DNA of 64,000 bases. Origin: Candidatus Woesebacteria bacterium (lineage in GTDB: Bacteria > Patescibacteriota > Microgenomatia > UBA1406 > HO2-37-13b). Position 1 is the first letter of the stretch, and every line of letters starts with the position of its first letter. The notes below the pieces were generated by a model. It was not told where the DNA came from. It did not search any database and saw only the letters and a list, made by a program, of their open reading frames with translations. Both the position numbers and the translations under genes were made by a program. This document shows, piece by piece, positions 2,379 through 17,043 of the stretch. The stretch spans positions 27,849-91,848 of the forward strand of contig JAGOSW010000002.1 in NCBI GenBank assembly GCA_018062135.1. Reading direction: 5' to 3'.

Positions 2379-3032
2379 ATGATACAAGCAGTCCTCTTCG
2401 ATGTTGATGGAACGTTAGTTAACTCCCTGGATAATTTTTTAAATGCCTATAAAAAAGTCCTAAAATACTATGGATTTAGTTTTTCAGATAGGAAAGTTGT
2501 TAATCTGTGTTTTGGTCGAAAAGAAGAAGTAATTTGTTCAGATTTAGGAATTCCCAACAAGGTAGAAGAATTCAGAGCTATGTACTTCGATGAGGTAAAG
2601 AAAGCAATGCCAAAACTTAATCTTTTTTCTGATACTTTAGAAACAATTACTGATCTTAAGAACAAGAAAATTAAATTAGCGATCATTACATTTGCTGTAG
2701 GATGGTACTTGGAAGAAATCTTCAGGATTTTTAACATTAAGAAGGACTTCTCTGTAGCTTTAAGTACTGATGACGTTATCAATCCTAAACCACATCCTGA
2801 AGCTGTATATAAAGTATGCAGCGAACTCAGGATTGATCCAAATGCTGCGTTGGTTGTTGGAGATTCCAAGGGAGATATTCTTATGGGTAAAAGTGCAGGC
2901 AGTAAAACCGTGCTGTATACTCCTGAAGATAATATGAAGATCTACTCTTTTAAAGAATTAGAAGAAGAAGCAAAACCTGACTTTGTTATAAAACGCCTAT
3001 CAGACTTAGCAAGCGTGATCGGCTCGATTTAG
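2379..3032 (+). CDS. HAD-superfamily phosphatase (phosphoglycolate-phosphatase-like)
   Basis: A 217-residue soluble hydrolase. Motif I is DVDGT (residues 8-12, D8 nucleophile and D10 acid), motif II is near IITF, the motif III lysine is in NPKPHPE, and motif IV is GDSKGD (about 161-166). The insertion between motifs I and II suggests a small helical cap (subclass I: phosphoglycolate phosphatase, PpaX or beta-phosphoglucomutase-like). The substrate cannot be told. It starts 9 bases after S10 without an SD and may be co-transcribed with it. Confidence 0.85.
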   Translation: MIQAVLFDVDGTLVNSLDNFLNAYKKVLKYYGFSFSDRKVVNLCFGRKEEVICSDLGIPNKVEEFRAMYFDEVKKAMPKLNLFSDTLETITDLKNKKIKLAIITFAVGWYLEEIFRIFNIKKDFSVALSTDDVINPKPHPEAVYKVCSELRIDPNAALVVGDSKGDILMGKSAGSKTVLYTPEDNMKIYSFKELEEEAKPDFVIKRLSDLASVIGSI

Positions 3033-3034
3033 TG

Positions 3035-3040
3035 TATACT
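3035..3040 (+). promoter_or_regulatory. -10 box of a leaderless gene
   Basis: TATACT lies 7 bases before the ATG at 3048, and no SD is present. This spacing would put transcription start at or next to the start codon. Confidence 0.55.
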
Positions 3041-3047
3041 TTTGAGT

Positions 3048-3350
3048 ATGAAACAGCCACAGTTTCTTGATGACGCTTTCTCTTTAATTTGTTCCCATCT
3101 TCTTACAACCTTCATTCGCAAACATAAAGATTACGGTAAAGATAATATTCTCGATACAGGGGAGATGGGCATAATTTTTCGTGTTAACGACAAAGTAAAC
3201 CGCCTGAAAAATCTTCAGCAGAATAATAAAGAACCGCAGAATGAGTCGCTCGACGAAACATGGATAGATATAGCAGTCTATGCTGTAATTGCCATCTTGT
3301 ATCGCAAGGGATGGTTTCAAAAGCTTGATTTAAAGGAGCTTTCCAAGTAA
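3048..3350 (+). CDS. DUF1599-like protein (nucleotide modification associated domain 1 type)
   Basis: A 100-residue all-helical protein. The pattern KHKDYG (about residue 25), GIIFRVNDKVNRL (about 45-57) and SLDETWIDIAVYAVI resembles DUF1599, a MazG-like fold often found in phage nucleotide-modification clusters; family assignment is from memory of the pattern. I chose the ATG at 3048 over an upstream TTG because a TATACT box sits 7 bases before it. Activity unknown; a nucleotide pyrophosphohydrolase-type role is inference. Confidence 0.65.
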   Translation: MKQPQFLDDAFSLICSHLLTTFIRKHKDYGKDNILDTGEMGIIFRVNDKVNRLKNLQQNNKEPQNESLDETWIDIAVYAVIAILYRKGWFQKLDLKELSK

Positions 3351-3363
3351 CGCATACTTTGTT

Positions 3364-3369
3364 TATAAT
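3364..3369 (+). promoter_or_regulatory. -10 box of the P-type ATPase gene, leaderless
   Basis: TATAAT followed by 6 bases and then the ATG at 3376; no SD. A weak TTCCAA is at the -35 distance. Confidence 0.6.
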
Positions 3370-3375
3370 CAAAGT

Positions 3376-5772
3376 ATGGCTGAATATAAAGGTCTCACGC
3401 AGGACATAGTTCAAAAACAACTTTCTGAGTTTGGTGAAAATAAGCTTCCATCAAAGAAAAGACTTTCTGTTCTCACTCGTTTTATCCACCAATTCTCTTC
3501 ACCACTCATATATATTCTCGTTGCCGCCGGCGTCATTACGTACCTTTTGGGCCACTATACAGATGCGCTCATAATATTTGTTGCTGTATTTCTCAATACA
3601 GTACTGGGTTACTATCAGGAAAGTAAAGCAGAAAACGCATTAGAGGCATTAAAAAGTATTATTCAGCCTGTTACCAATGTATACAGAAAGGGACAGCTTG
3701 AAAAAATTCCCGTACATTTAATTGTCCCGGATGATATTGTCGTCTTGCACCAGGGCGATAAGGTTCCTGCTGATGGCATTGTTCTCGAGTCAGTTCAGCT
3801 TTCGACAAACGATGCTATCTTAACAGGAGAGAGTATTGCAATTCGCAAAAAAGTTAATGATACAGTCTACATGGGAACAACCGTTCTGACGGGACGAGCA
3901 GTCTTTCGGATAACCTCAACTGGCGTAAACACCAAAATTGGTTCGATTGCCGATAGATTATCTTCAACAAAAGAACCGCTCACACCCTTACAACAACGTA
4001 TTCAATCGCTCGCTCATGTTCTCGCAGCAGGTATTGTGAGTATCTCAATCGTTGTTTTTCTGATTGGTTTAATGCAAGGCGTTCCCATTCATGATATGTT
4101 TACGACTTCAGTAGCGCTCGCTGTTGGCGCAATTCCTGAAGGCTTAACTATTTCACTTACGGTGATCTTGTCGCTTGGAATGCAACGTATTTTAAAGAAG
4201 AAAGCTTTGGTAAGACGTCTAGTTGCTGCTGAAGCATTAGGATCAGTAACAGTAATAGCGACAGACAAGACAGGAACGCTCACTGAGGGAATTATGCGCG
4301 TTACAGATACGAAGCTTACTAATCTACATGACGCACTTGATGTTGCGTGTTATGCGAACAACTTAGATGATCCGATTGAATTTGCGCTCTGGGACTGGGT
4401 TTCAGAGAATAATATCGATCCAGAAACAAAAAATAAAAATATTGTGCGTCAAGATGAGGTTCCTTTTGACAGTATTAATAAGTACATGAGCGTCACCATT
4501 GATGGGGTGACGTATTTAAAAGGCGCACCAGAAGTCGTAATGAAGCTTTCACAACTTTCTGTGGCGGAAAAGAAAAAGATGATCGAACAGCTTACAGAAT
4601 GGTCGATGAAAGGACTTCGTGTTATTGCGTGCGCAAAAAAATCATCTAAAAGCAAAAAATTTACGTGGATTGGACTTATTGGAATTGAAGATCCTGTACG
4701 AATAGGATTGGGTAATGTTTTTGAAGAATGTAATAAGGCAGGCATTCGTATCATAATGATGACAGGTGACTACGTAGGAACGGCAGAAGCCATATGGAAG
4801 CAGGTTACCCATGGTAACGATAAAGAAGTCATAACGGTAACTGGTGAGGAACTAGACAAGATGTCGGATGAAGAAGTTCTGGATCGTATCGGAACACTAG
4901 ATATTTGTGCGAGAGTATCGCCAATGCAAAAGTTGCAACTAGTACAAGCATTGCAAAAGAGAGGAGAAATTGTTGCGCTTATTGGCGATGGGGTAAATGA
5001 CGCACTTGCACTTAAAGCCTCGCACTTGGGTGTCGTCGTTGGTGAGGCATCGGATGTAGCTAAAGAGACAGCCGATATGGTTTTGCTTGATTCCAATTTT
5101 AGGACAATTATTCAAGTTATACGGGAGGGAAGAGGAATATTTGATAATATTCAGAAAGTTATTTTGTATCTTCTGTCAGATAGTCTGAGTCAAATAATGT
5201 TAGTTGTTGGTACTATCCTTTTGGGCTTTCCTATTGCTCTAACTGCTGCACAGATTTTATGGATTAACATTATTACCGATGGATTGCCTTCGCTTGCGCT
5301 AACTTTTGAACCGTATGATGTATCGAAAACACGAAATTTCCCTAGAGCTCAAAGCTCGCTATTAAGCTTACCGCTTGTAGTATTTATGCTCTGCGTAAGT
5401 TTCTCTATTGGTGCCATAGGCTTAGCATTGTATTCATATTTCCTAAGCATTACTTCACTTGAGGTGGCAAGAACTGTCGTATTTAGCTATGTTGCTTTAT
5501 CTACAATGCTACTGGTCTTTCCGCTGAGAACTCTTCTCTTACCTATATGGAAAGTATCTTTCTTTAATAATCCTGTTTTACTTTTATCTGTCGCCATAGG
5601 TATTCTTATACAATTGTTTGTCATTCAACTAACATCATTACAGTTTATTATTAATACAGCACCGTTGTTAATTGATGAGTGGATGTATATTATTGGAGGA
5701 GTTGCATTAGTGCTGGTCTTGGTTGAAATCTTAAAGGCAATAATGCGCTATTTTAAGTTAGATGTTCGTTGA
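3376..5772 (+). CDS. P2-type (calcium-like) cation-transporting ATPase
   Basis: A 798-residue membrane pump. In order: a cation-ATPase N-terminal domain, M1-M2, an actuator domain with LTGES, M4 with the PEGL motif (P254-L257), the phosphorylation motif DKTGT (D297), KGAPE of the nucleotide-binding domain, MTGD, GDGVNDALAL in the hinge, and six C-terminal membrane segments. This matches the P2A family (SERCA/PMCA-like Ca2+ pumps). The ion is inferred; monovalent cations are not excluded. It has its own leaderless promoter and sits as an insertion between S10 and L3. Confidence 0.9.
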   Translation: MAEYKGLTQDIVQKQLSEFGENKLPSKKRLSVLTRFIHQFSSPLIYILVAAGVITYLLGHYTDALIIFVAVFLNTVLGYYQESKAENALEALKSIIQPVTNVYRKGQLEKIPVHLIVPDDIVVLHQGDKVPADGIVLESVQLSTNDAILTGESIAIRKKVNDTVYMGTTVLTGRAVFRITSTGVNTKIGSIADRLSSTKEPLTPLQQRIQSLAHVLAAGIVSISIVVFLIGLMQGVPIHDMFTTSVALAVGAIPEGLTISLTVILSLGMQRILKKKALVRRLVAAEALGSVTVIATDKTGTLTEGIMRVTDTKLTNLHDALDVACYANNLDDPIEFALWDWVSENNIDPETKNKNIVRQDEVPFDSINKYMSVTIDGVTYLKGAPEVVMKLSQLSVAEKKKMIEQLTEWSMKGLRVIACAKKSSKSKKFTWIGLIGIEDPVRIGLGNVFEECNKAGIRIIMMTGDYVGTAEAIWKQVTHGNDKEVITVTGEELDKMSDEEVLDRIGTLDICARVSPMQKLQLVQALQKRGEIVALIGDGVNDALALKASHLGVVVGEASDVAKETADMVLLDSNFRTIIQVIREGRGIFDNIQKVILYLLSDSLSQIMLVVGTILLGFPIALTAAQILWINIITDGLPSLALTFEPYDVSKTRNFPRAQSSLLSLPLVVFMLCVSFSIGAIGLALYSYFLSITSLEVARTVVFSYVALSTMLLVFPLRTLLLPIWKVSFFNNPVLLLSVAIGILIQLFVIQLTSLQFIINTAPLLIDEWMYIIGGVALVLVLVEILKAIMRYFKLDVR

Positions 5773-5797
5773 CTTGTATTATATCTTGTTATATAAT
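5769..5797 (+). promoter_or_regulatory. strong promoter of the L3 ribosomal operon
   Basis: TTGACT (5769-5774), a 17-base spacer and a perfect TATAAT (5792-5797). The -35 box overlaps the stop codon of the ATPase gene. Transcription would start near 5804, about 105 bases before the L3 ATG. Confidence 0.85.
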
Positions 5798-5851
5798 GCA
5801 GTTTGCATGTTTTGCCTAATGCCACACTCAGCATTTAGTACATAGCAGCAT

Positions 5852-5894
5852 CAGATTGGAAGGCTTCTAAAAAGCCCCAGTCTGGGGTTTTTTT
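5852..5894 (+). promoter_or_regulatory. attenuator in the L3 operon leader (antiterminator/terminator switch)
   Basis: Terminator: CCCCA (5875-5879) pairs with TGGGG (5883-5887), followed by seven T. Alternative fold: CAGATTGG (5852-5859) pairs with CCAGTCTG (5877-5884, one G-U) around an inner GGCTT/AAGCC hairpin (5862-5876). The two folds share bases 5875-5887 and exclude each other. The element lies between the operon promoter and the L3 start at 5910, so premature termination would silence the whole cluster. The ligand, perhaps a ribosomal protein such as L4, is a guess. Confidence 0.7.
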
Positions 5895-5909
5895 ATTTAA
5901 AAAAGTTCT

Positions 5910-6683
5910 ATGATCGCCAAATTTATTCTCGGTACAAAAGGAGCTACGTCGCAGGTGTTTTCTGACAAAGGAGACAGAATGCCCGTAACATTTATTAAAA
6001 CAAGACCCTGTCATGTGGTAAACGTGAGGACTATGGATACTCACGGCTACTGGGGACTTCAACTTGCATTTGGTCAAGCAAAGAATATTTCCAAGCCAAC
6101 ACAGGGAATATTAAAAAAAGCGGGGGTAAAAGCCCCGCTTCGTTTTTTAAGAGAGGTGCGACTTTCGTCATGCGAGCTTGTTGAAGATGGAAAAAAGAAA
6201 GGTCTAAAAGTCGGCGAAACTTCTTTTATGATCGGTGATGAAGTTCCACCTACCTATTTTGCGAAAGGCGATATGGTTACAGTGACTGGTAAATCAAAAG
6301 GAAAAGGTTTCCAAGGTGTCGTTAAACGACATAAGTTTGCAGGTGGTCCACGCACCCATGGTCAATCTGACCGTGAAAGATCTCCTGGATCTATTGGCCA
6401 AGGTACCACACCAGGTCGCGTATATAAAGGAAAAAGAATGGCAGGTCGTATGGGATACGAAACAGTTACAGTAAAGAATCTCTTGGTTGTCGACAGCCTT
6501 GAGGATGGGATCCTAATTAAAGGATTGGTCCCAGGACCAAGTGAGGGGCTCATTGCTATTTCTTCTGCTAATGCTGTTGCAGTGCCAGTTATGGAAGAGG
6601 TCATTGAAGAAGTAGTCGAAGAAGTAGTCGAAGAAGTTGTTGAAGAAGTTAAGCCAGAAGCTGAAACAGCTGAGGCAGAATAA
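5910..6683 (+). CDS. rplC: ribosomal protein L3 (uL3)
   Basis: A 257-residue protein of the peptidyl-transferase centre region. The core loop GKGFQGVVKRHKF...GGPRTHGQSDRERSPGS is intact. The length exceeds the usual ~205-210 because of a C-terminal acidic tail built from EEVVEEV repeats and a short E/A-rich end. It is the first gene of the large operon behind the attenuator, with no SD. Confidence 0.97.
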   Translation: MIAKFILGTKGATSQVFSDKGDRMPVTFIKTRPCHVVNVRTMDTHGYWGLQLAFGQAKNISKPTQGILKKAGVKAPLRFLREVRLSSCELVEDGKKKGLKVGETSFMIGDEVPPTYFAKGDMVTVTGKSKGKGFQGVVKRHKFAGGPRTHGQSDRERSPGSIGQGTTPGRVYKGKRMAGRMGYETVTVKNLLVVDSLEDGILIKGLVPGPSEGLIAISSANAVAVPVMEEVIEEVVEEVVEEVVEEVKPEAETAEAE

Positions 6684-15909: not shown

Positions 15910-17043
15910 ATGAAACTCGTTTTAATTGGAATACCCGGCGCTGGAAAGTCGACTCAAGGCAGTTTATTGTCTCGTCAACTTGGAGTACCCTATCTTTCTA
16001 CAGGTCACATCTTCCGTATTATCGCTAAGGAAAAAACTACTATTGGACGTTATGTAAAAGAAACTATGAACTCCGGTCTTTTAATTCCTGATGAGGAGAC
16101 TATTCCTATAGTGGAAGACTACTTATCACGAAGAGAGTATAAAAAAGGCTATATTTTAGATGGATTTCCCCGCACCTTAAATCAAGCTAAAAAGTTTAAG
16201 AGCGATCTCGATAAAATAATATATTTGGAGCTACCAGATAAAGAAGCCCTGTGGCGCATTGCATATCGAACAGAAGATGCGCGCGATGATCAAACCGTAG
16301 CTGCTGTAATGAAAAGAATTGAAATATTCAATGAAGTAACAAAGCCTGTCATTTCTCACTTTGATGAAAAAGGAAAGCTTATCCGTATTGATGGGACAAA
16401 AAGTATTGAGGATGTTAATAAGGAGATACTAAAGCTACTAGGAAAGGAATTTTATAAGAATAAGGTTCGTTCATGGAAGCAGAAGCAAAAAATCATTCTT
16501 GCAGTTACTGGGTTACCAGGCTCTGGGAAAACCGAAGCGACTACTTACTTTAAAAGTAAAAAACTACCGGTTGTTCATTTTGGGAACATAATCAATGATT
16601 TAGTAGCTGAGCGTAAACTTGCACATACTGAGGATGTTCATAAATTAGTTCGTATGGAAGTACGCGAGAAATATGGCATGGAGGCAATGGCAGTATTGAG
16701 TAAAGAGAAGATTAAAAAGTCGCTTGAAAAAGAAACATTGGTAGTTCTTGATGGGTTGTATTCGTTTGAAGAATACCAATATCTTAAGAAAGAATTTAAA
16801 GACGTCAAGGTTGTATTGTTAGTGCTTTGGGCAGATAAGAAACTTCGTTACGATCGAGTTGAAAAAAGAAAGGATCGAAGAGGACTAGCTAATGAGGAGC
16901 GTGACTTGAATGAGATTTTACAAGCTAACAAAGGCCCTACCCTTGCATTTGCAGATTTTATGGTTATTAACGATGGGTCCATGCACGATCTTCAGGCAAA
17001 GCTAGAAGAGGTTTATCGCGATGTGTACTTCTCTCTTGAATAA
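15910..17043 (+). CDS. adenylate kinase fused to a UPF0200/dephospho-CoA-kinase-like P-loop domain
   Basis: A 377-residue protein with two P-loop kinase domains. Residues 1-~185 are adenylate kinase (ATP + AMP = 2 ADP): P-loop GIPGAGKST, GLLIPDEET, DGFPRT, and a short LID with RDDQTVAAVMKRI. Residues ~195-377 begin with a second Walker A, GLPGSGKT (201-208), then PVVHFGNIINDLV, VRMEVREKYGMEAMA, VVLDGLYS and VEKRKDRRG, a pattern I associate with UPF0200, an archaeal-type family near dephospho-CoA kinase. adk is standard after secY; the second domain is not. Its substrate is unknown. Confidence 0.85.
   Translation: MKLVLIGIPGAGKSTQGSLLSRQLGVPYLSTGHIFRIIAKEKTTIGRYVKETMNSGLLIPDEETIPIVEDYLSRREYKKGYILDGFPRTLNQAKKFKSDLDKIIYLELPDKEALWRIAYRTEDARDDQTVAAVMKRIEIFNEVTKPVISHFDEKGKLIRIDGTKSIEDVNKEILKLLGKEFYKNKVRSWKQKQKIILAVTGLPGSGKTEATTYFKSKKLPVVHFGNIINDLVAERKLAHTEDVHKLVRMEVREKYGMEAMAVLSKEKIKKSLEKETLVVLDGLYSFEEYQYLKKEFKDVKVVLLVLWADKKLRYDRVEKRKDRRGLANEERDLNEILQANKGPTLAFADFMVINDGSMHDLQAKLEEVYRDVYFSLE

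Follow-up and report, generated by a model that had tools for sequence, protein, structure and literature searches.

A conserved leader upstream of the ribosomal protein L3 operon of a Candidatus Woesebacteria genome is a probable translation-coupled transcription attenuator

Introduction

In Escherichia coli, the S10 operon is preceded by a transcription attenuator, a leader upstream of rpsJ that is bound by ribosomal protein L4. Here we describe a leader that likewise appears to attenuate transcription before the same gene cluster, in a 64,000-nucleotide (nt) stretch of contig JAGOSW010000002.1 of a Candidatus Woesebacteria bacterium (the whole stretch is referred to below as the window), but that precedes rplC, the gene for L3, contains a short upstream open reading frame (uORF), and resembles no leader in Rfam. 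The initial annotation of this DNA had drawn an analogy to control by L4, which none of our tests supported: no match to an Rfam S10/L4 leader was found, the leader lies before L3 rather than before S10, and the ORF that it encodes points to a sensor other than L4.

Several described attenuators are built around a uORF. The actinobacterial whiB7/wblC attenuator responds to impaired translation, and the leaderless polycysteine uORFs of mycobacteria (PMC8764745, cited in PMC13236596) are reportedly short attenuator ORFs that are specific for cysteine and control operonic genes in response to it. The likeness to the mycobacterial uORFs is that of a leaderless attenuator, the cysteine specificity being theirs. 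The whiB7/wblC attenuator (cited in PMC13236596) shares uORF-coupled transcription attenuation with the present leader and differs in that its target is an antibiotic resistance regulator rather than ribosomal proteins and in that its sequence is unrelated. The trp, his, and ilv attenuators, including Mycobacterium tuberculosis ilvB1 (PMC13236596), share a short ORF at the 5' end, a stop codon abutting the antiterminator strand, and mutually exclusive antiterminator and terminator helices, whereas the leader described here has no regulatory codons, serves a ribosomal protein operon, and apparently has a leaderless start. The Bacillus subtilis rplJL operon (PMC4538822) is also a ribosomal protein operon with an attenuator and a leader peptide, but its leader RNA is a target of L10(L12)4, and the peptide, whose Shine-Dalgarno (SD) sequence lies inside the 3' arm of the terminator, counteracts Rho.

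We found no description of the present leader or of a terminator internal to rplC in a literature search that reached few subscription papers and no bioRxiv preprints. The main text in which Eckert and Weinberg present 20 leader candidates (PMC7247131) mentions none of Microgenomates, Patescibacteria, or candidate phyla.

Results

The architecture of the leader, comprising conserved elements, two mutually exclusive helices, a characteristic uORF, and a constraint on synonymous codons within L3, is strongly supported. The initial annotation had placed before the L3 operon an attenuator whose antiterminator and terminator exclude each other, a proposal for which the comparative evidence is strong; it had lacked the uORF and the terminator inside L3, both of which are added here.

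All of these features lie on the plus strand. The near-consensus promoter named in the initial annotation is present at 5769 to 5797, with TTGACT (5769 to 5774) separated by 17 nt from TATAAT (5792 to 5797). It matches 11 of 12 consensus positions and scores highest in a 20-kb scan that returned 38 promoter-like sites, which as a class were not commoner than in shuffles, and TTGAC-N17-TATAAT is kept at the equivalent place across the leaders of the order. The uORF (ATG to TAG, MFCLMPHSAFST-stop) extends from 5807 to 5845 and has 12 codons. Its ATG lies 9 nt past the −10 box, so that a 5' untranslated region of only 0 to 3 nt is expected, and the 5' end of the RNA probably falls on the AUG or no more than about 3 nt from it.

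The uORF stop codon is followed, after 6 nt, by the 5' strand of the antiterminator, CAGATTGG (5852 to 5859), which is mostly invariant or nearly so in 44 aligned leaders. Both pairings of the initial annotation are found in the sequence. The 3' strand, CCAGTCTG (5877 to 5884), is complementary to CAGATTGG and is shared with the terminator hairpin CCCCA-GTC-TGGGG (5875 to 5887), and because both helices use 5877 to 5884, they are mutually exclusive. The hairpin leads into a U-tract of seven T's (5888 to 5894), with a T-run in 44 of the 44 aligned leaders, and 15 nt separate its end from the L3 ATG at 5910. In our pattern scan, this hairpin was listed solely for the minus strand, and the plus-strand U-tract was read straight from the sequence. 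The minimum free energy fold adds an inner extension to the antiterminator, GGCTT (5862 to 5866) with AAGCC (5872 to 5876), spanning 5862 to 5876; this extension is lineage specific and, by eye, has counterparts in some other long-looped leaders. Folding of the 90-nt leader gives −27.9 kcal/mol, more stable than its dinucleotide shuffles (z = −2.9).

To place the leader in its lineage, we compared the regions upstream of L3 in 57 genomes of the same order and aligned 44 leaders. Our search found no second genome belonging to the same genus as the window, whose nearest relatives share about 58% L3 identity. The typical element of the order consists of the promoter, (C/A)(A/G)GATTGG, a short variable loop, AGCCCCAATCTGGGGCT, and a T-run. 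A covariance model built from the 44 leaders detected the element in 49 of the 57 genomes, essentially in single copy and beside L3, and this conservation excludes chance. Among 374 genomes of the class, the model recovered members of the order and a few genomes of families f24 and f25, again at L3, and no element was found at any other operon. Two matches from outside the order (G147 and G263; E values of 0.005 to 0.007) do not lie at L3 and were set aside as looking like chance. Rfam searches of the window and 12 related loci, at the gathering score and at a relaxed E value, returned nothing relevant, the best subthreshold hits being to unrelated families.

The initial annotation had looked to compensatory changes in both pairings. 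The terminator has them: it is paired in 91% of cells of the 44-sequence alignment, both sides have changed in 22 cells across four pairs, and its covariation score exceeds those of all 500 shuffles and of all slid versions. The antiterminator, paired in 93% of cells, has almost no double changes within the order; its changes are mostly wobble compatible (C-G to U-G and A-U to G-U). Other families keep the layout and build the antiterminator from complementary sequences of their own: CGGATTTTGGG with CCCCGATCCG in f25, CTCGGATGAG with CTCAACCGAG in f9, GGCTACATAATAGAGTC with GACTCTATGTGGTC in f18, and CTGAGTGGG with CCTCATTCGG in f4. Upstream segments in these other families bind the terminator better than shuffles do in many cases but not in all (17 of 46 fall in the best 5%).

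The position of the uORF is conserved at both ends. In 39 of 47 leaders of the order, an ATG lies 7 to 9 nt past the −10 box (shuffles gave a mean of 2.3 and a maximum of 8), and in 43 of 45 leaders, an in-frame stop codon lies 3 to 18 nt before GATTG (shuffles, mean of 7.7, standard deviation of 2.3, and maximum of 15). The other two frames served as a control for stop placement and gave 1 of 45 (+1) and 11 of 45 (+2). The stop codons used are TAA (29 leaders), TAG (13), and TGA (3), most relatives have a uORF of 10 to 18 codons, and the signature holds in 26 of 28 genera when each genus is counted once. The interior of the uORF is scarcely conserved, with 33% nucleotide identity across genera against 28% expected from base composition. 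We found no run of regulatory codons and no common peptide motif across genera; amino acid composition is near expectation except for Phe, which is modestly enriched (33 residues versus 18.6 expected).

In the class outside the order, a terminator is present in 48 of 60 regions upstream of L3, and an ATG lies 5 to 14 nt past the −10 box in 25 of the 44 regions that have such a box (expected, 8.4; maximum, 15), with several more GTG starts. The antiterminator strand of f18 contains the stop codon of the uORF (MARQTLEVIVAT-stop, MTKRMEVFLAT-stop), and the peptides of five f18 members (L180, L185, L196, L200, and L207) share the ending (E)V[FI][LV]A[TA]-stop, which may reflect constraint on either the peptide or the RNA. 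The leader ORFs of L195, L204, L216, L218, L224, and L230 (families f19, f7, f35, f16, and f28) open with ATGGAGGTG, a strong SD-like sequence within the first uORF codons. Some of those terminators carry CCTCC in their loop, with which this sequence can pair, and such pairing may offer an alternative means of sensing 30S subunits. In 40 regions upstream of L3 from other classes of the Candidate Phyla Radiation (CPR), the signature of an AUG at the transcription start was absent (2 of 25; expected, 4.9). Conserved-looking L3 leaders of a different kind, lacking that signature, occur in other CPR classes (L246, L250, L255, and L260).

A leaderless uORF is plausible in this genome, given the spacing of −10 boxes and the scarcity of SD sequences. 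Among 59 long ORFs in the window, 15 have a −10-like box 5 to 9 nt before the ATG, against 1 to 6 in every other 5-nt bin, which suggests that leaderless transcripts are widespread in the lineage. SD sequences are present in few genes of the operon, and L3 has none (the energy of its duplex with the anti-SD is about 0). In many relatives, the L3 start lies 0 to 30 nt past the leader U-tract, leaving little or no space for another promoter.

The coding sequence of L3 itself contains a second, predicted intrinsic terminator at 6118 to 6148, 208 nt past the L3 start. It consists of AAGCGGGG-GTAAAAG-CCCCGCTT, CG, and TTTTTT and is encoded in codons for KAG[IV]K[TA]PLRFL. Codon choice at this site in 39 relatives is strongly skewed (background frequencies in parentheses): Ala is GCG in 36 of 39 (0.13), Gly is GGG in 31 of 39 (0.08), Thr is ACC in 35 of 36 (0.23), Pro is CCG in 38 of 39 (0.29), Leu is CTT in 37 of 39 (0.23), Arg is CGT in 35 of 39 (0.13), Phe is TTT in 37 of 37 (0.81), and the second Leu is TTA in 30 of 34 (0.33). 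Binomial P values reach 1e-28, a statistic that ignores relatedness. In L010, the outer A-U pair of the hairpin has become G-C through changes on both sides, and other families form a hairpin at the same place from other stems: AGGAGCC/GGCTCCT in f7, AGGAGCAAC/GTTGCTCCT in f40, GAGGAGCT/AGCTCCTC in f26, and ACGGGAA/TTTCCCGT in f24. When synonymous codons were redrawn, the natural hairpin fell in the top 5% for 45 of 54 genes of the order and 19 of 27 of the class, and rarely elsewhere (2 of 21 genes in other CPR classes and 3 of 57 in non-CPR genomes).

An antisense terminator at the L3 hairpin was considered and rejected, since codon choice enriches the downstream T-tract, the U-tract of the coding strand, but not the upstream A-tract on which an antisense terminator would depend. 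The −1 frameshift heptamer U UUU UUA fits the phase in most members of the order; frameshifting was also set aside, because other families have CGC TTT TTT or CGT TTT TTG, a difference which indicates that the features kept are the U-tract and the stem. In five members of f25 (L167, L168, L171, L172, and L173), a Pro-Pro motif of L3 (NPPRF) falls exactly at the intragenic terminator, and ribosomes could slow there.

We consider it probable that the leader is a translation-coupled transcription attenuator in which the uORF senses ribosome supply and the L3 terminator provides a second gate. The RNA would open with the leaderless 12-codon uORF, and a ribosome that promptly reached the uORF stop codon would abut or cover the antiterminator's 5' strand. 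The antiterminator would thereby be weakened, the terminator would form, and the operon would be switched off after an RNA of about 90 nt. If no ribosome arrived in time, GATTGG would pair with CCAATC, the terminator would be blocked, and polymerase would enter L3 and the genes beyond. Because uORF codons are not conserved and carry no amino acid signature, the simplest candidate for the signal is the availability of ribosomes for initiation, which would make the circuit a negative feedback on ribosome synthesis. Intact 70S ribosomes bind leaderless AUGs (PMC9031893), and the quantity sensed may accordingly be free 70S. The second gate would follow the principle, set out in PMC5021804, that a ribosome close behind RNA polymerase suppresses an intrinsic terminator. 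The L3 terminator would fire when polymerase has no trailing ribosome on L3, making the remaining operon dependent on L3 translation, so that a failure to translate L3, including possible repression by a ribosomal protein, would cost downstream transcription. The two gates would have opposite signs. The transcription start, translation of the uORF, the direction of regulation, the sensed quantity, and termination at the L3 hairpin are what we infer from this arrangement.

A ribosome at a stop codon covers roughly 9 to 10 nt beyond it and at the usual spacing would therefore reach the start of the antiterminator strand. We modeled occlusion crudely, leaving kinetics out, with a fixed footprint of 26 nt, the total ribosome footprint used in PMC13236596. 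For the window, the probability of the terminator was 0.00 in the free RNA versus 0.93 with the uORF stop region occluded. The fold model agrees with a terminator relieved when translation fails in the window and does so weakly for many relatives.

L3 (rplC, 5910 to 6683; Pfam PF00297) is the first of about 30 genes that run on the plus strand to S9 (21918) and include secY (14430) and rpoA (19634), identified from ORF lists, with SecY and RpoA confirmed by Pfam; the figure of some 28 governed genes in the initial annotation was about right. The layout suggests a single transcript from L3 to S9, and this gene run is expected to be controlled by the leader. A cation ATPase gene lies directly upstream of L3 in the window, with S10 and EF-Tu farther upstream, and three genes (a HAD-like hydrolase, a small ORF, and the P-type cation ATPase; 2379 to 5772) separate S10 from L3. 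The upstream neighbor of L3 is an ATPase in several genomes of the window's family and S10 elsewhere, and the leader remains with L3. The adenylate kinase gene at 15910 to 17043 encodes a 377-amino-acid protein whose C-terminal half contains a second AAA/kinase-like domain (PF13238).

Discussion

Several observations weigh against a translation-coupled attenuator. The model is built from sequence comparison and folding, and in the counts, relatedness was taken into account only through the per-genus tally. The ATG is missing from 2 of 47 leaders (L014 and L130), and in L029, the uORF reads through GATTG. The whole element is missing from a few relatives in the order (L119, L122, L124, L132, and L133); L119 retains the promoter and has lost the antiterminator and terminator, and L132 and L133 are also without the promoter. 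Within the order, we found one double change in the antiterminator, a scarcity explained by the fact that its 3' strand must also form the terminator. In most relatives, the terminator is favored at equilibrium without a ribosome (median probability, 0.90), and in many it prevails with or without one, so that a switch in these leaders would have to be kinetic. With a ribosome modeled at the stop codon, the 5-bp core of the antiterminator still pairs for the most part in the truncated RNA (median, 0.91), and the most common distances from the stop codon to GATTG, 8 to 10 nt, give partial rather than full occlusion.

Autoregulation by a protein is the usual control of such operons, and L4, L3, or another product of the operon might bind the leader and shift the balance between antiterminator and terminator, in the manner of L4 on the E. 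coli S10 leader. The strong sequence conservation of the GATTGG/CCCCAATCTGGGG core would fit such a site, but it is accounted for by the double pairing without a protein site, and a conserved site would not readily permit the unrelated sequences that occupy the same layout in other families. No Rfam leader matches. Mimicry of 23S rRNA by the leader was rejected, because CAGATTGG, CGGATTGG, and CCAATCTGG are all absent from this genome's 23S rRNA match with its flanks, and binding by a protein would leave the uORF unexplained. We do not favor L4-like binding of a ribosomal protein and judge it improbable. Less probable still is that the uORF stalls on a specific cue, be it an amino acid, an arrest peptide, or an antibiotic, as in the trp, ilvB, and whiB7 leaders. 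The architecture equals that of leader peptide attenuators, and the Phe enrichment lends this idea something, but the peptides are unrelated between genera and near the composition expected from their bases, and induction of ribosomal proteins under amino acid starvation would contradict the usual stringent logic.

Translation of the uORF might instead promote expression, either by shielding the leader from Rho or by supplying ribosomes for reinitiation at L3, in which case the hairpins would set RNA stability or the reinitiation distance. The leader peptide of B. subtilis rplJL does raise expression (PMC4538822), and L3 has no SD sequence of its own. What makes this about as unlikely as specific stalling, if not slightly more so, is that the uORF stop codon keeps a near-fixed distance to the antiterminator strand and not to L3, whose start lies anywhere between about 0 and over 100 nt past the U-tract. 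The element might also be no more than the terminator that ends the upstream gene (S10 or the ATPase), its complementarity being fortuitous, which fits its location between two genes; we regard this as very unlikely, since in most relatives a promoter stands between the upstream gene and the terminator, the element follows L3 when the neighbor switches from S10 to the ATPase, and L3 often starts a few nucleotides past the U-tract. Attenuation coupled to translation of the uORF remains the reading that we prefer.

A wider proposal, that a double translation gate operates throughout the class (apparently Microgenomates), with a leaderless uORF closing the operon when ribosomes are plentiful and the terminator in L3 codons closing it when L3 is untranslated, is tentative, and we would put it at somewhat less than an even chance. 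To our knowledge, little has been established about how CPR bacteria, which have tiny genomes and few regulators, keep ribosome synthesis in balance. The circuit proposed here is concrete and testable and is present in much of one class. If it works as described, ribosomal protein operons can be controlled by direct sensing of translation through a leaderless uORF, with no ribosomal protein as the repressor, in a feedback loop that counts ribosomes. Selection on synonymous codons would keep an intrinsic terminator in an essential coding sequence, tying translation of L3 to transcription downstream. The conserved spacing suggests that the cell may check the abundance of ribosomes before making more of their parts.

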